Origin: Nocardia vulneris
GTDB lineage: Bacteria; Actinomycetota; Actinomycetes; Mycobacteriales; Mycobacteriaceae
Assembly: GCF_001613425.1 (NCBI RefSeq)
Contig: NZ_BDCI01000004.1
Coordinates: 186,001-250,000 of the forward strand
Reading direction: 5' to 3'
Length of the DNA: 64,000 nucleotides
The notes under the pieces were generated by a model that saw nothing but the letters and a program-made list of their open reading frames with translations, was not told the DNA's origin and made no database searches. Below, piece by piece: positions 42,687 through 48,259 of the stretch; the stretch's first letter is position 1; each line of letters opens with the position of its first letter. Both the position numbers and the translations under genes were made by a program.

Positions 42687-43697
42687 TCAGCCGGAGGCGA
42701 TCGCGGTGATGAGCGTGCGGGAGGCGAGCGTGCGGGTCGTGATGAGCTGGGTGAAGGTGCGCGGCTGTTCGCCGGGGTACTGCTCGGTGAGTTTCACCTC
42801 CCAGTGCGCGAGTCCGTCGTCGCCGTCCTTGGCCCGGGTGACCAGGACGCAATAGCGGGTGCCGACGGGAGTCTGGTTGATCCCGCGCTGGATCTGGTCG
42901 GCGGGCGAGACGATCGCATTGTCCGCGACCACCGCACGCGCCCGATATCCGGAACGCTCCACGTAGTAGGCGTATTCGAAGGCGAGGATGGCGTCCGGGC
43001 CGGTGGCGGTGCCGCCGGGATCGGTGCCGGACACGATGTCAGGAGTACGCCGCTGCTCGCACCCCTGCGTCGCGATCGCCGAAGCCTGTGCGGGCGGTGC
43101 CGTACTGGTCGCCGCGGTCGTCACCGCGCCGGGGGCGCGCACCGTCGAACTGGCCGCGGCGGGCTTGTCGTCGCCACCCAGACCGTTGATCGCGGTGTAC
43201 AGGATCGAGACCACCGCGATCCCGACGCCGAGCACGATCAGTACAGCGAGGATCCGATTGCCGTTGGACTGCCTGCTGCGCTGGCGGGTCGGATGGCGCA
43301 GCGGGACGCCCGGATGGATGCCGGACCGGTTGATGATCGCGGGCGGCGGCGCGACATTGTCGTCGTAGCCGGCGGCGCGATCGTCCTCGTCCGCGACGGG
43401 CACGCGCCGCCGCTCCGGCGCCACCGACGGCTCCGGTCCCTGCTCGGCCGTACGCGGCGGCGGGTCCAGCCATTGCTCCCAGTCACCGGTGCGCCGCGGC
43501 CGGGCGGCCGGTGCGTCCGGGTTCGGCTCGGGCACGTAGACCTCCGGATCTCGGCGGCGCACCGGCGACCGGCGACCGGACGGACGCCGCCGCTTGCGCG
43601 TCTTGCCGACGGGCGTGCGCACCATGGGCAGTCCGGTATCGAACGGATTGCCCTGCCCCTCTTGCCGACCCGGAGAATTCGGGTCAGAGGGTGTCAT
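42687..43697 (-). CDS. Single-pass membrane protein, third gene of the EspC-like operon
   Basis: The 336-residue protein has a long cytoplasmic N-terminal part rich in Arg and Pro (TRKRRRPSGRRSPVRRRD at about 33-50), a membrane helix (ILAVLIVLGVGIAVVSILY, about 149-167), a Thr/Ala/Ser linker and an extracytoplasmic domain of about 130 residues with two Cys (213, 283). No family is recognised. It overlaps the upstream 459-residue gene by 14 bases, so the two are coupled. It could anchor or export the partner proteins; this is inferred from gene order. Confidence 0.7.
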   Translation of the reverse strand: MTPSDPNSPGRQEGQGNPFDTGLPMVRTPVGKTRKRRRPSGRRSPVRRRDPEVYVPEPNPDAPAARPRRTGDWEQWLDPPPRTAEQGPEPSVAPERRRVPVADEDDRAAGYDDNVAPPPAIINRSGIHPGVPLRHPTRQRSRQSNGNRILAVLIVLGVGIAVVSILYTAINGLGGDDKPAAASSTVRAPGAVTTAATSTAPPAQASAIATQGCEQRRTPDIVSGTDPGGTATGPDAILAFEYAYYVERSGYRARAVVADNAIVSPADQIQRGINQTPVGTRYCVLVTRAKDGDDGLAHWEVKLTEQYPGEQPRTFTQLITTRTLASRTLITAIASG

Positions 43698-45063
43698 CGT
43701 CGTAGTCGCCGAGCACCGGTGTCACGGCGACCACTGCGGTCGGCACGGTCACGCCGAGCTGGCCTTCGCGGGGCTTGTGCTCCCGATCGTCCGGCGGCGG
43801 CGAGGGCGGCAACGCGACGCCGCCGGTGGTGCCCGGCGGGTGCGGCTGGTCCGGCGCGGCGGAACGCGACGGCGCGTCGTCCACCACCGGTGGCGCCGGG
43901 GCCGGCGCGGGGGCCGGCTTCGACTCCGGTTTCGGCGGTGCCTCGTTCGCGGTCGGCGCGGAGCCCGGCCCGGACGGCGGAATCACACTGCTCGGACCGC
44001 TGGGACCACTCGGTGCCGGAGTACGCGCGCCCGCGCCGAAATCGAACAGCTTCGGCGAGGCACTCGAATTCGACGAGCCGTTCGGCCCGTCGCCGGTGGT
44101 GCTGCCGGGCCGGATCGCCTCGGTCACGGCCTTGTCCGCGCCGGCCGCCACCGTATCGATGGCGTGCGTGCCGACCTCGGCGACCTTGTCGATGATGTGG
44201 GTGCCGACGCCGGCGATCTTGTCGATGATGTTCGTGCCGATGTCGACGCCCGCGTTGATCGCCGCGGTGCCGACCTGCACCCCCGCCGAGATCAACTGCT
44301 GCTGCAACTGGAGTTGCGCGGCCAGTGCCGGATCCATCGGCTGCCCGTTGGCGGTCGTGCCCGGCACGTATTGGCTCGTTACGCCGGGCGGGTAGGTGCC
44401 CGAAGAGTAAGGCCCGGACGAGTAGGGCTGCGCTGTGGTGACCCCGGACGGCTGCGTGACCGTGAGCGGGCCCATCGCGTCGAGCCGCCTGCTGTGATCG
44501 TCCATTTCGGTCTGCGCGGCGTTGACCGTGGTCAGCGCGTCCCGCAGGGCCTGGGTGGCCCGCGCGATCACCGCGTCGGTGTCGGGCGCGGCGGTCGCGT
44601 TGCCGAGAATCTGGCGGGCGTCGCTGCGGAAGTCGGCGATGATCTGATCGACCGTGCGCGCGGCGCGCGCGCTGGTGGCGTGCGCGTCACCGAGCACGCT
44701 CAGGTAAGCCGGTCCGCGATCGGAGATTTCGCCGATCTCGGTCTGTGTGGTGCGCAGCGCGGGCACCGCCGCATCGGCGCCACGCGAGGTCCAGGTCGAC
44801 TCCAGTGCGTGCAGGCCGTCGCGGTGCGGGCCCTCGGTGTCGGCGGCCTGGGTGCTCGCGGCGGACAGCGCTGCGGTCGCGGTCTGATTCGGCACGGCGA
44901 CCCCCGAACCGAGCGTGGACCGCAGTTGCAGCAGCGGCCGCACCAGCGCGGCGACGATGGGGGGATCGACATTCGGGTCGAGATAGGTCGTTGCGGGCAC
45001 GGCGTTGTCGGTGCGCGCCGGCGCGGCCGCGGGCCGTCTGCGTAGTCCGGAAAGGCTTCTCAT
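43684..45063 (-). CDS. Large helical, Pro-rich protein with 11-residue repeats (T7SS-associated candidate)
   Basis: The 459-residue protein has no signal peptide. Residues about 30-200 are predicted helical and Ala-rich; about 205-245 are Tyr/Ser/Pro-rich; residues 264-307 contain four tandem 11-residue units (VGTAAINAGVD and relatives); about 345-435 are Pro/Ala-rich. The overall layout resembles large type VII secretion substrates that pair with an EspC- or WXG100-like protein. Its ATG overlaps the stop of the EspC-like gene (ATGA), and its end overlaps the membrane protein gene. No YxxxD/E export motif was found by eye. Confidence 0.7.
   Translation of the reverse strand: MRSLSGLRRRPAAAPARTDNAVPATTYLDPNVDPPIVAALVRPLLQLRSTLGSGVAVPNQTATAALSAASTQAADTEGPHRDGLHALESTWTSRGADAAVPALRTTQTEIGEISDRGPAYLSVLGDAHATSARAARTVDQIIADFRSDARQILGNATAAPDTDAVIARATQALRDALTTVNAAQTEMDDHSRRLDAMGPLTVTQPSGVTTAQPYSSGPYSSGTYPPGVTSQYVPGTTANGQPMDPALAAQLQLQQQLISAGVQVGTAAINAGVDIGTNIIDKIAGVGTHIIDKVAEVGTHAIDTVAAGADKAVTEAIRPGSTTGDGPNGSSNSSASPKLFDFGAGARTPAPSGPSGPSSVIPPSGPGSAPTANEAPPKPESKPAPAPAPAPPVVDDAPSRSAAPDQPHPPGTTGGVALPPSPPPDDREHKPREGQLGVTVPTAVVAVTPVLGDYDDDTL
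44143..44274 (-). repeat. Four tandem 33-bp units encoding an 11-residue repeat
   Basis: The 33-base period is visible as GTGCCGA(C/T) recurring on the plus strand at 44168, 44201, 44234 and 44267. On the coding strand it gives VGTAAINAGVD, IGTNIIDKIAG, VGTHIIDKVAE and VGTHAIDTVAA. The hydrophobic positions fit an 11/3 amphipathic helix of the kind seen in synuclein, perilipin and LEA proteins that bind membranes or lipid surfaces. Confidence 0.8.
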
Positions 45064-45383
45064 GTCAGCGTCTCCCCTGTCCGGGTGATGGCGCCCGCGG
45101 TGTCGCCGTCGACACCCTGCATATTCGCGGTGTAGTCGCGCAGGACCTGCCCATAGGTGCCGACCAACTGGCCCGCGGTCGAGAGCGCCTGCGCGTGTTC
45201 GGAGACCGCCGTGGCGAAGCGCGCCGCGAAATCGGCGCCGATCAGTCCGAGGTCGGCGGCGAGCTGGTCTTGATTCACCGCGCCGGACGCTACGGCCGAC
45301 GCCGAGGCGAGTTGCTGGGAGACCGCGTCCGCGATCGCGGTGTATGCGGCTACCGCCGCCGGGTCGAGCTTCAGCGTGTCCAC
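45060..45383 (-). CDS. EspC-like / WXG100-related type VII secretion protein
   Basis: The 107-residue all-helical protein begins MDTLKLDPAAVAAYTAIADA and has LGLIGADFAARFATAV, then LVGTYGQVLRDYTANMQGVD. This follows the pattern of EspC-type ESX-associated proteins (L.ldP..v...A, G..G..F, late D). It lacks a WxG turn and a clear YxxxD/E signal. GTG start with a very strong GGGAGGGG site. First gene of a three-gene overlapping operon. No ESX core genes (eccC, eccD, mycP) are in the window. Confidence 0.75.
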   Translation of the reverse strand: MDTLKLDPAAVAAYTAIADAVSQQLASASAVASGAVNQDQLAADLGLIGADFAARFATAVSEHAQALSTAGQLVGTYGQVLRDYTANMQGVDGDTAGAITRTGETLT

Positions 45384-45549
45384 CGTTCCCCTCCCGGGTT
45401 ACCAGTCCTTCGCTACCGCGACATGATTCGAAGACAAGCCTACTGTGCGACCTGGACACCTGCGTCAGATCTTCGCTTGTCGCTCCGCTGAGTATGGCAA
45501 TCAACGTACGCGCTGTCATGCGCTGGCCCGGCACTTCGTCGAATTGATT

Positions 45550-45596: not shown

Positions 45597-46451
45597 GTGC
45601 GCGGCAGTGTGGAGGGGGGCGGGCAAGTCGCTGCGACCGGGCACCCTTGGCGGGTCATCGCGGTATACGCCCAGTTGGCGCGGGCCGGGTTCCGGCGGCA
45701 GTCCCAGTACAAGCTGGCGATGTTCGCCGGACTGTTCACCAATTGCGTGTTCGGCTTCGTCCGGGCGGCGGTGATGCTGGCCGCCGTGCGGGTGGCGGGC
45801 GACTTCGGCGGCTACACCGAAGGTTCCATCGGCGCCTACGTCTGGTTGTCTCAGGGGCTGCTCGGAGCGCTGCAGTTCATGGGACCGCCGCTCGACCTTT
45901 CGGATCGAGTGCGCAACGGCGACATCGCGATCGATTTCCTGCGTCCGGTCGACATCCAGCTCGGCTATCTGGCCGGCGATATCGGACGCGCGGCGTGCAC
46001 GATCCTGCCGCGCGGCGTGCCGAGCGTGTTGATCGGCGTGCTGACCTTCGGCCTGGCGATGCCGACCACGCCGGGCCCCTACCTGCTGGGGACGATGAGT
46101 GTGCTGCTCGCCGTTGCCCTCTCGTTCCTCTGCCTGTTCGTGGTGGCGCTGATCGGATTCTGGGTGGTCGAGACCCGCGGCATCCGGGTGGTGTACCAGA
46201 TCTGCGGCACGTTCCTGGCCGGGCTCTTCGTGCCGGTGCACATGTTCCCGCTCTGGCTGCGCACGATCGCGCAGGCGACACCGTTCCCGTCCATCCTGCA
46301 AGCCCCGATCGACGTGCTGTCCGGCCGGACGACCGGCACGGCGGCGGTGGGGGTGCTGGCGGTTCAAGTGTTCTGGGTGCTCCTGATCGGCCTGGCCGGG
46401 CGGCTGCTGCTGGCTGCGGGACGGCGCAAGCTGGAGGTGCAGGGTGGCTGA
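45597..46451 (+). CDS. ABC-2-type transporter permease (first subunit)
   Basis: The 284-residue protein has six predicted membrane helices, with MGPPLDLSDRVRNGDIAIDF and FLRPVDIQLGYLAGDIGRA typical of the ABC-2 permease group that works in pairs. The GTG start at 45597 lacks a ribosome site; a GTG at 45609 is also possible. It overlaps the next permease gene by 8 bases. With the ATPase it forms an exporter of unknown substrate, divergent from the EspC-like operon. Confidence 0.85.
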   Translation: MRGSVEGGGQVAATGHPWRVIAVYAQLARAGFRRQSQYKLAMFAGLFTNCVFGFVRAAVMLAAVRVAGDFGGYTEGSIGAYVWLSQGLLGALQFMGPPLDLSDRVRNGDIAIDFLRPVDIQLGYLAGDIGRAACTILPRGVPSVLIGVLTFGLAMPTTPGPYLLGTMSVLLAVALSFLCLFVVALIGFWVVETRGIRVVYQICGTFLAGLFVPVHMFPLWLRTIAQATPFPSILQAPIDVLSGRTTGTAAVGVLAVQVFWVLLIGLAGRLLLAAGRRKLEVQGG

Positions 46452-47268
46452 GTCGGCCGCCGCCGCGGGCACCTGGTTCACCCCGTACGCGGCGGTGCTG
46501 CGCTCGCGGATCCGCGCGCAGCGGTCCTATCGGTTGTCTTTCGCCAGTGAGGTTTTCGGCGCGTTCCTGATCGGTCTCGTGGAATTCGCCGAGGTGTGGG
46601 TGATCTTCCACAACGTCCGGGTGCTCGGCGGACTGGATCTGAACGCCGCGCTGCTGCTCTTCGGCTTCGGGCAATCGACCTTCGCCTTGGCCCAGGTCCT
46701 GTTCGGGCATCTGGACACGCTGCCGACGCTGATCCGGATGGGCCAGCTCGATGCCTACCATCTGCGCCCGCAGCCGCTGCTGCTGCAACTCGTCACGAGC
46801 GATATCTCGTTGCGCCGCTTCGCCAGGGCGGCGGTCGCGATCGTGGTGCTCGGCGTCGGACTGTGGCGCAACGATATCGATTGGGGCCCAGCGACTCTCG
46901 CCCTGATCGCATTAACCCTGGTGAGCGGCGTCGCCCTGTTCGGCGGGATCTTCGTGTGCGCGGCGGGATTACAGTTCTATTTGATCGACGGAGCCGAGCT
47001 CACCAACAGTTTCACCTACGGCGGTTCGTTCGCCGCGGTCCAACCGGCCACGGTGTTCCCGATGCCGCTGCGGGTGCTGTTCGGCTTCGCGATTCCGGTG
47101 TCGTTCACGGCCTACCTACCCACCATCGCGCTGCTCGACCTGCCCGGCCCGCCGCTGCTGCCGGCCTGGCTGGCCTGGTTCGTCCCGCTCGCTGTGCTGT
47201 GGGTGTGGCTGCTGGCACTGGTGCTCTGGCGCTTCGGTACCCGGCATTACCAAGGAGGGGGCGGCTGA
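46444..47268 (+). CDS. ABC-2-type transporter permease (second subunit)
   Basis: The 274-residue protein has six predicted membrane helices and the same organisation as the first permease (LIRMGQLDAYHLRPQPLLLQ matches its loop NGDIAIDFLRPVDIQLG in position). GTG start inside the 3' end of the first permease gene. The ATPase gene starts two bases after its stop. The two permeases likely form a heterodimer. Confidence 0.88.
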   Translation: MAESAAAAGTWFTPYAAVLRSRIRAQRSYRLSFASEVFGAFLIGLVEFAEVWVIFHNVRVLGGLDLNAALLLFGFGQSTFALAQVLFGHLDTLPTLIRMGQLDAYHLRPQPLLLQLVTSDISLRRFARAAVAIVVLGVGLWRNDIDWGPATLALIALTLVSGVALFGGIFVCAAGLQFYLIDGAELTNSFTYGGSFAAVQPATVFPMPLRVLFGFAIPVSFTAYLPTIALLDLPGPPLLPAWLAWFVPLAVLWVWLLALVLWRFGTRHYQGGGG

Positions 47269-47269
47269 C

Positions 47270-48259
47270 ATGGCGAATTCCGGTGCGGCAGAAGCCATCA
47301 TCGATATCGAGAACCTGACCAGAGAATTCACCCTGACGCGCAAGGACGGCCGCCGATGGCGGCGGCGGCGCGAGACCTTGACCGCGGTGGACCGGATGAC
47401 TTTCCGGATCGAGCGCGGCGCCGCGGTCGGCTATATCGGCGCCAACGGCGCGGGCAAATCCACCACCATCAAAATGCTCACCGGCATCCTGGTGCCCACC
47501 GCGGGCCGCGTGCGCACCTGCGGGCTGGAACCGGTCCGGCAGCGGCGCGAACTGGCCGCCCGGATCGGCGTCGTGTTCGGGCAGCGCTCCCAGCTCTGGT
47601 GGGATCTGCCACTGCGCGAATCGTTTTCGATCCTCGCGGCCATCCATCGGCTGGAGCCCGATGCCGCGCGCAAACGCGAGCACGAGCTGGTCGAGCAGCT
47701 GGAGATGGCCGAGACGCTGGACACGCCGGTGCGCCAGCTCTCGCTGGGCCAGCGCATGCGCGCGGAAGTGGCCGCGGCCCTGCTGCATTCGCCCGAACTG
47801 GTGATTCTGGACGAACCGACGATCGGACTCGACGTGCTGTCGAAGCAACGCCTGCGCGAGTTCCTGCGGGCCGAGCGCGCCGAGCGCGGCACCACGCTGC
47901 TGCTCACCACCCACGACATGGGCGACATCGAAAGACTGTGCGGCCGAGTGCTCGTGGTGGATCACGGACACCTGGTCTACGACGGGTCGCTGACCGGGCT
48001 GGCCGCGACGGTGGGGGCGCGGCGCGTCCTCGTCGTCGATCTGGCCGAGCCGGCACCGGATCTCGACGATCTCCCGTGCGCGCAACTGCTCGAATCCGAA
48101 GGCGGCGGCATGCGTCAGCGGCTGGCCTTCGATCCGGAACAGACCACCGCCGCGCAGCTGCTCGCGCTGGTCTCCGAGCGCGCCGAGGTGCGGGACCTGT
48201 CCATCGAGGAGCCCGAGATCGAAGACGTGGTCCGGCGGATATACGAATCCGCCCGCTGA
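47270..48259 (+). CDS. ABC transporter ATP-binding protein
   Basis: The 329-residue ATPase has Walker A GANGAGKST, Q-loop GQRS, signature LSLGQRMRAE, Walker B LVILDEP and switch THD. The C-terminal 90 residues form an extra domain as in drug- or polysaccharide-export ABC-2 ATPases. An Arg-rich insertion (KDGRRWRRRRET) lies between the first beta strands. It completes a three-gene exporter. The substrate is unknown. GGAGGGGGCGG precedes the ATG. Confidence 0.92.
   Translation: MANSGAAEAIIDIENLTREFTLTRKDGRRWRRRRETLTAVDRMTFRIERGAAVGYIGANGAGKSTTIKMLTGILVPTAGRVRTCGLEPVRQRRELAARIGVVFGQRSQLWWDLPLRESFSILAAIHRLEPDAARKREHELVEQLEMAETLDTPVRQLSLGQRMRAEVAAALLHSPELVILDEPTIGLDVLSKQRLREFLRAERAERGTTLLLTTHDMGDIERLCGRVLVVDHGHLVYDGSLTGLAATVGARRVLVVDLAEPAPDLDDLPCAQLLESEGGGMRQRLAFDPEQTTAAQLLALVSERAEVRDLSIEEPEIEDVVRRIYESAR

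Follow-up and report, generated by a model that had tools for sequence, protein, structure and literature searches.

Organisation of the locus

We examined a compact three-gene operon on the minus strand of a 64,000-nucleotide stretch of the Nocardia vulneris genome (NCBI RefSeq assembly GCF_001613425.1, contig NZ_BDCI01000004.1, positions 186,001 to 250,000 of the forward strand). This whole stretch is referred to below as the window, and coordinates are those of the window unless another contig or locus is named. The source contig (C4) is 642 kb long, in a genome totalling 9.38 Mb. The three genes, hereafter the trio, encode an EspC-family protein (gene 1), a helical partner of the WxG type (gene 2) and a single-pass membrane protein (gene 3). 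An earlier note on this DNA, made from the sequence alone, had described three minus-strand genes overlapping by 4 and 14 bases, and these boundaries proved exact. The features of the locus are as follows:

45060..45383, minus strand: gene 1, EspC-family protein of 107 residues, GTG start (sequence; PF10824 match; orthologues at 68/68 loci)
45390..45395, minus strand: ribosome-binding block GGGAGG, 5' of gene 1 (sequence; similar blocks in orthologues)
45060..45063, minus strand: ATGA shared by the stop of gene 1 and the start of gene 2 (sequence; 4 bases in 68/68 loci)
43684..45063, minus strand: gene 2, WxG-type helical partner of 459 residues with a disordered, proline-rich tail (sequence; model; WxG-NlpC/P60 homology)
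44446..44964, minus strand: gene 2 residues 34-206, predicted PPE41-like helical bundle with W91 at the helix turn (model)
44156..44240, minus strand: 33-bp (11-residue) tandem repeat of gene 2 (repeat analysis; three-unit form in 7/68 orthologues)
43684..43697, minus strand: overlap between genes 2 and 3, 14 bases (sequence; 14 bases in 53/63 loci)
42687..43697, minus strand: gene 3, single-pass membrane protein of 336 residues (sequence)
43185..43259, minus strand: membrane helix of gene 3, residues 147-171 (prediction)
42690..43061, minus strand: outer domain of gene 3, residues 213-336, DUF8176 (PF26527), predicted NTF2-like, with two invariant cysteines (family; model)

The strong ribosome site ascribed to gene 1 was found as a GGGAGGGG block just 5' of the GTG, and a similar purine block preceded all 52 of those orthologues (from a total of 68) whose alignment starts at residue 1. 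A pattern search at the trio gave no terminator-like sites; it gave a single promoter-like site, a weak one (9 of 12), and we attach no weight to these results.

Conservation and distribution of the trio

We found that the three genes are kept together above chance: the trio is a real module, inherited as a single unit. Scanning the gene-2 alignment against genomes gave 68 loci, every one in Nocardia, and in 68/68 an EspC-like gene lay directly 5' of gene 2 with the 4-base overlap. Gene 3 came next after gene 2 in 63 loci, and the remaining five (L166, L187, L188, L189 and L202) stop inside or shortly past gene 2. Taken to the nearest possible start codon, the junction between genes 2 and 3 measured −14 in 53 of these 63 loci, −4 in 6, −1 in 2, −11 in 1 and +15 in 1. 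Among 35 further relatives of the same genus, 23 had a gene-2 match at E ≤ 1e−40, with an adjoining gene-3 match in 23/23; in the other 12, gene-2 matches were weaker (best 9.2e−20) or absent. The N. brasiliensis gene 2 is 99% identical to the N. vulneris copy. It should be noted that our alignments are selections: 25 EspC rows and 48 gene-3 rows, counting the own copy, together with 68 of 120 gene-2 proteins.

An order-wide profile search for gene 2 in 298 genomes, with 5 candidates scored per genome, matched 8, of which 6 were the own genome or the same genus and 2 were weak (1.9e−5 and 8.8e−4). A search of 5.8 billion proteins returned 120 gene-2 proteins among 7996 candidates scored, and those with an organism label were from Nocardia; the one exception carries the label Streptomyces gardneri, but its UniRef name suggests Nocardia. 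As far as these sequence searches reach, gene 2 appears to be a Nocardia protein. One genome which also carries the trio (G031) has a second, divergent gene-2/gene-3 pair at C1:71760-73894.

The EspC-family protein and its partner

The description of gene 1 as EspC-like held. Of 25 aligned gene-1 rows, 23 matched PF10824 (EspC family) at E ≤ 1 (best 9.1e−6), with the own copy at 18.7 bits, below the cut-off of 23.5. A search of PDB sequences with gene 1 gave rows at chance level and no convincing relative. Elsewhere in the own genome (L070:8086-15416), an EspC-like gene of 206 residues is followed by a predicted frame of 2,235 residues, a possible large type VII cargo.

The N-terminal domain of gene 2 is predicted to have a PPE41-like fold, residues 41-206 of the model following PPE41 5-174 in structure comparison. 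The gene-2 scans gave no Pfam PE or PPE match, a PDB sequence search with gene 2 found no relative, and PF18879 (EspA/EspE family) was not matched at E ≤ 1 in a scan of the 68 gene-2 members. At the WxG site of the 68 aligned rows the tryptophan is present in 62, and the position two residues on is glycine in 24 and serine in 41. The 11-residue repeats that had been pointed out in this protein correspond to the 33-bp tandem repeat at 44156-44240, which has 2.6 copies; counted by regular expression across the 68 orthologues, three units were found in 7, two in 33, one in 27 and none in 1, a truncated locus. The tail is disordered and proline-rich, with a conserved GQLGVTxP and an acidic end, and we take it to be a binding arm rather than an enzymatic domain.

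The membrane protein with a DUF8176 domain

The single-pass topology suggested for gene 3 was borne out, with a single helix, residues 147-171, in the membrane position, an arginine-rich tail ahead of it and two outer cysteines. These cysteines, C213 and C283, are invariant in 48/48 aligned rows, and the tail carries the motifs NPF[DE]xGLPM (47/48 rows) and [DN]R[ST]G (48/48 rows). PF26527 (DUF8176) is precomputed on all 77 listed proteins, including the 99% identical one of N. brasiliensis; our Pfam scan of the own gene 3 gave no PF26527 row. Structure comparison of the model gave an alpha-beta cone for the outer domain, which is thus predicted to be NTF2-like. No mention of DUF8176 was found in the literature searched.

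Gene-3 relatives are widespread: the own genome carries 7 copies, and across the family 94 of 151 genomes and 25 of 31 genera gave matches. Serine/threonine kinases annotated with PF26527 occur among the listed proteins. A gene-3-type outer domain also ends a longer, serine/threonine kinase-like frame at L090:7606-9126, with similar frames in L091 and L092 which we read as kinases. In some species the region before the outer domain of gene 3 expands without a stop, giving a protein of 2,327 residues in L176 (11328-18311) and proteins of 508-1,216 residues in L181, L168, L174, L173, L177 and L159; these expanded regions, over 2,000 residues in L176, are of disordered composition and retain the NPFDxGLPM start. 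A gene-3 paralogue of the own genome (L058:4752-7190) lies 3' of a cutinase-domain protein, beside ParA-like and small membrane genes.

A paralogous locus encoding a WxG-NlpC/P60 protein

The N-terminal domain of gene 2 shares homology with the WxG/EspA-like half of a WxG-NlpC/P60 protein encoded at a second locus. We sampled this locus in the own genome and 18 relatives, picked for having a gene-2 match there. All 19 regions yielded a call of the WxG-NlpC/P60 protein, which matched PF18879 in 10/19 at E ≤ 0.01; as we read the alignment, no signal peptide is evident on it. In 18/19 regions it is adjoined by an EspC-like gene (none was called in L276), and 18/19 have a YbaB-like gene, the stretch in L262 beginning at the contig start, before that gene could appear. 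A gene-3 relative was located 9-12 kb from the EspC-like gene in 13/13 sufficiently long regions. EspH, which is YbaB-like, binds EspE in M. marinum (PMC6107294, seen in part), and the paralogous locus therefore resembles a complete cargo unit. The trio may be a second such unit, one in which a tail took the place of the enzyme and an overlapping membrane gene was added.

Genomic position relative to ESX machines

The earlier note had pictured a satellite module with no ESX ATPase nearby, and the second point was confirmed: the own genome has 10 matches to EccC, on contigs C26, C25, C7, C1 and C15, with none on C4 (41 of 46 candidates scored). A Pfam scan of nine neighbouring genes found no ESX parts; EccD and mycosin were not searched for genome-wide. 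The satellite picture itself needs amending, since the module is not rootless. The trio lies directly 3' of glmM in 25 of 68 loci, and the paralogous locus described above also exists. EccC proximity was looked at in 12 genomes of the genus, own included, 6 of them with a glmM-linked trio and 6 with the trio elsewhere. Counted from the gene-2 edge, the nearest EccC of 4 of the 6 glmM-linked genomes was on the same contig and strand, at 29.1 kb (G021), 25.7 kb (G035), 25.6 kb (G006) and 22.8 kb (G011). The other two, G009 and G034, had over-cut-off EccC on other contigs, and G009 a partial match, weaker than these, at about 94 kb.

We built a tree of genes 1 and 2 with a midpoint root, which held 66 of 68 rows and 23 of the 25 glmM rows (L179 and L202 were left out). 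On this tree the glmM position needs two changes, against a shuffled mean of 19.1. Because the glmM position is spread across early branches, with a 37-row group containing N. brasiliensis nested within them (97/93), leaving glmM looks like the later event. The glmM position is thus probably the older one, provided that neither the root nor the cyriacigeorgica branch is misleading; four long branches were flagged and some early forks are weak (89/59, 84/70).

We considered whether the trio is orthologous to the small-plus-large pair that mycobacteria carry beside glmM, which we take to be Rv3440c-Rv3439c. This was rejected, as the own genome has a different pair there (L234, 7836-9929; EspC 22.2 bits, below the cut-off, and a weak WXG100), and the trio is therefore an additional pair. 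A small-plus-large pair also lies beside glmM in a mycobacterium-like genome (L242:8443-10076).

Within the window the trio is neighboured by genes for a permease, an ABC-2 exporter, a GGDEF-EAL protein, a methyltransferase and an S15 peptidase. The divergent ABC-2 exporter, with its ATPase, is beside the trio (45597-48259). Such exporter families were found in the flanks of only 11/68 loci, 7 of those in the N. brasiliensis group, and a constant partnership with the trio was rejected.

As for the machines available, a published table credits N. brasiliensis with three ESX clusters (PMC4791881), which we read, the row being available apart from its column heads, as ESX-4, ESX-4EVOL and an ESX-1-like cluster. 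The portion consulted of another paper names ESX-4 as the sole system of Nocardia (PMC11217815).

Proposed role of the trio

Our proposal, to which we give a probability of roughly one half, is that the trio is a co-inherited module in which an EspC-family and WxG-type pair is exported in trans by a distant ESX system while gene 3 docks or senses at the envelope. Gene 1 and the gene-2 bundle would form a four-helix pair, by analogy with EspA/EspC, EspE/EspF and PE/PPE. This pair would probably leave through an ESX-4-type machine encoded elsewhere, which we infer because of the older position near EccC genes and because the cargo is free of cysteine (absent from the 68 gene-2 rows and the 25 EspC rows). 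Export is favoured because gene 2 is homologous to a wall-enzyme-domain protein without an evident signal peptide. At the envelope the exported pair would then encounter the outer domain of gene 3, predicted to be NTF2-like, and gene 3 may dock or sense there, as its tight coupling and topology suggest.

The state of the export tag weighs against simple export. Type VII pairs carry YxxxD/E after the hairpin on one partner and WxG on the other, according to the sections seen of one study (PMC6107294). A pattern search found YxxxD/E after residue 60 in 0/68 gene-1 orthologues, and at the aligned site the tyrosine is gone in 25/25 rows, where it is replaced by M, A, V, S, Q or T. Such an eroded tag speaks against simple export; of what had been suggested earlier, the assignment of the first two proteins to the EspC/EspA kind and of the genes to one unit stands, and simple export is the part called into question. 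The absence of cysteine is a weak argument for export, as 8/47 proteins of similar length lack it too.

The main rival, tentatively held and clearly less probable than export, is that an old secretion pair has ceased to be exported and remains cytosolic, where the conserved inner tail of gene 3, with its NPFDxGLPM and DRSG motifs, binds it; the module would then be an envelope sensor with an inside output. The lost tyrosine fits this, as do the missing glycine of the WxG site in 44/68 gene-2 rows (one of them a gap), the near-complete conservation of both tail motifs and the occurrence of DUF8176 on serine/threonine kinases. However, the acid of the YxxxD/E site is retained in the same 25 rows (24 D and 1 E), and the EspC proteins of the paralogous locus have D in 18/18, with Y in 10 and L in 8 at the position four before. 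That partner thus lacks the tyrosine in 8/18 despite its wall-enzyme cargo, and the residue may therefore be dispensable in this subfamily. Several others among 13 listed EspC-type proteins of the own genome are also without YxxxD/E, so that loss of the motif is not unique to the trio. Loss in one branch, beside a paralogue which partly keeps the tyrosine, offers a way to ask whether it is needed outside mycobacteria. A related and rather doubtful idea is that a cargo pair with a dismantled tag, its tyrosine lost and its glycine mostly lost, was captured by a DUF8176 membrane protein and became a permanent component of a transmembrane device that senses or anchors at the envelope, the cargo thus residing at its own membrane dock.

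It is unlikely that gene 3 works as an independent sensor or receptor, merely co-transcribed and without contact with the pair: its relatives do occur in the many contexts described above, but it follows gene 2 in 63/63 long-enough loci with a conserved overlap, and the paralogous locus too has a gene-3 relative nearby in all 13 long-enough regions. Least probable, in our view, is that the pair acts as a secreted effector aimed at the host, with gene 3 helping in its export. Carriers of the trio include species with a clinical record, but also, judging by their names, species from soil or insects. In M. marinum, EspA and EspC are ESX-1 substrates required to lyse red cells at pH 5 (PMC13203967, seen in part); against an effector, the nearest paralogue of gene 2 has a wall-enzyme domain and our Pfam scans of gene 2 gave no effector domain.

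Comparison with known systems

We found no description of the trio operon in the literature on Nocardia EspC, ESX-4, type VII secretion and DUF8176, part of which was covered as titles or the starts of abstracts. In the accounts available to us in part, espACD of M. tuberculosis, like the trio, encodes an EspC-family protein together with a WxG-type, EspA-like partner. It lies apart from the ESX-1 locus, as the trio lies away from its presumed export machine. In contrast to espACD, the EspC-like gene comes first in the trio and the third gene encodes a DUF8176 membrane protein, not EspD; gene 2 has no cysteine, whereas EspA has one in those same accounts, and has a proline-rich tail, and gene 1 is without the tyrosine of YxxxD/E.

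The closest likeness within Nocardia is the WxG-NlpC/P60 locus (C43 type; C40 family peptidase), which shares with the trio the EspC-like partner, the homologous N-terminal domain and the gene-3 relative; its large protein ends in NlpC/P60 and it has a YbaB-like gene 3', and the trio has neither. The predicted fold of gene 2 (41-206) tracks PPE41 (5-174) of the PE25-PPE41 pair, although the trio's products match neither PE nor PPE in Pfam. EspE/EspF with EspH are likewise a pair of the EspC/EspA type and a third protein whose gene lies close by (PMC6107294), but EspH is a cytosolic YbaB-like chaperone and gene 3 a membrane protein. The DUF8176 serine/threonine kinases of Nocardia share the outer domain of gene 3, which has a disordered tail where they have a kinase domain.

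To our knowledge, few cargoes of ESX-4-type machines are known. These machines are described as the most ancestral ESX systems in the part seen of one paper (PMC11217815), and the part seen of a 2016 paper gives the function of ESX-4 as unknown (PMC4791881). A module that is widespread in Nocardia, with an older position near EccC and a membrane partner, offers a small handle on the cargo of such machines and on its destination. The trio is best read as a satellite variant of the EspA/EspC-type cargo unit, with a putative envelope docking protein.
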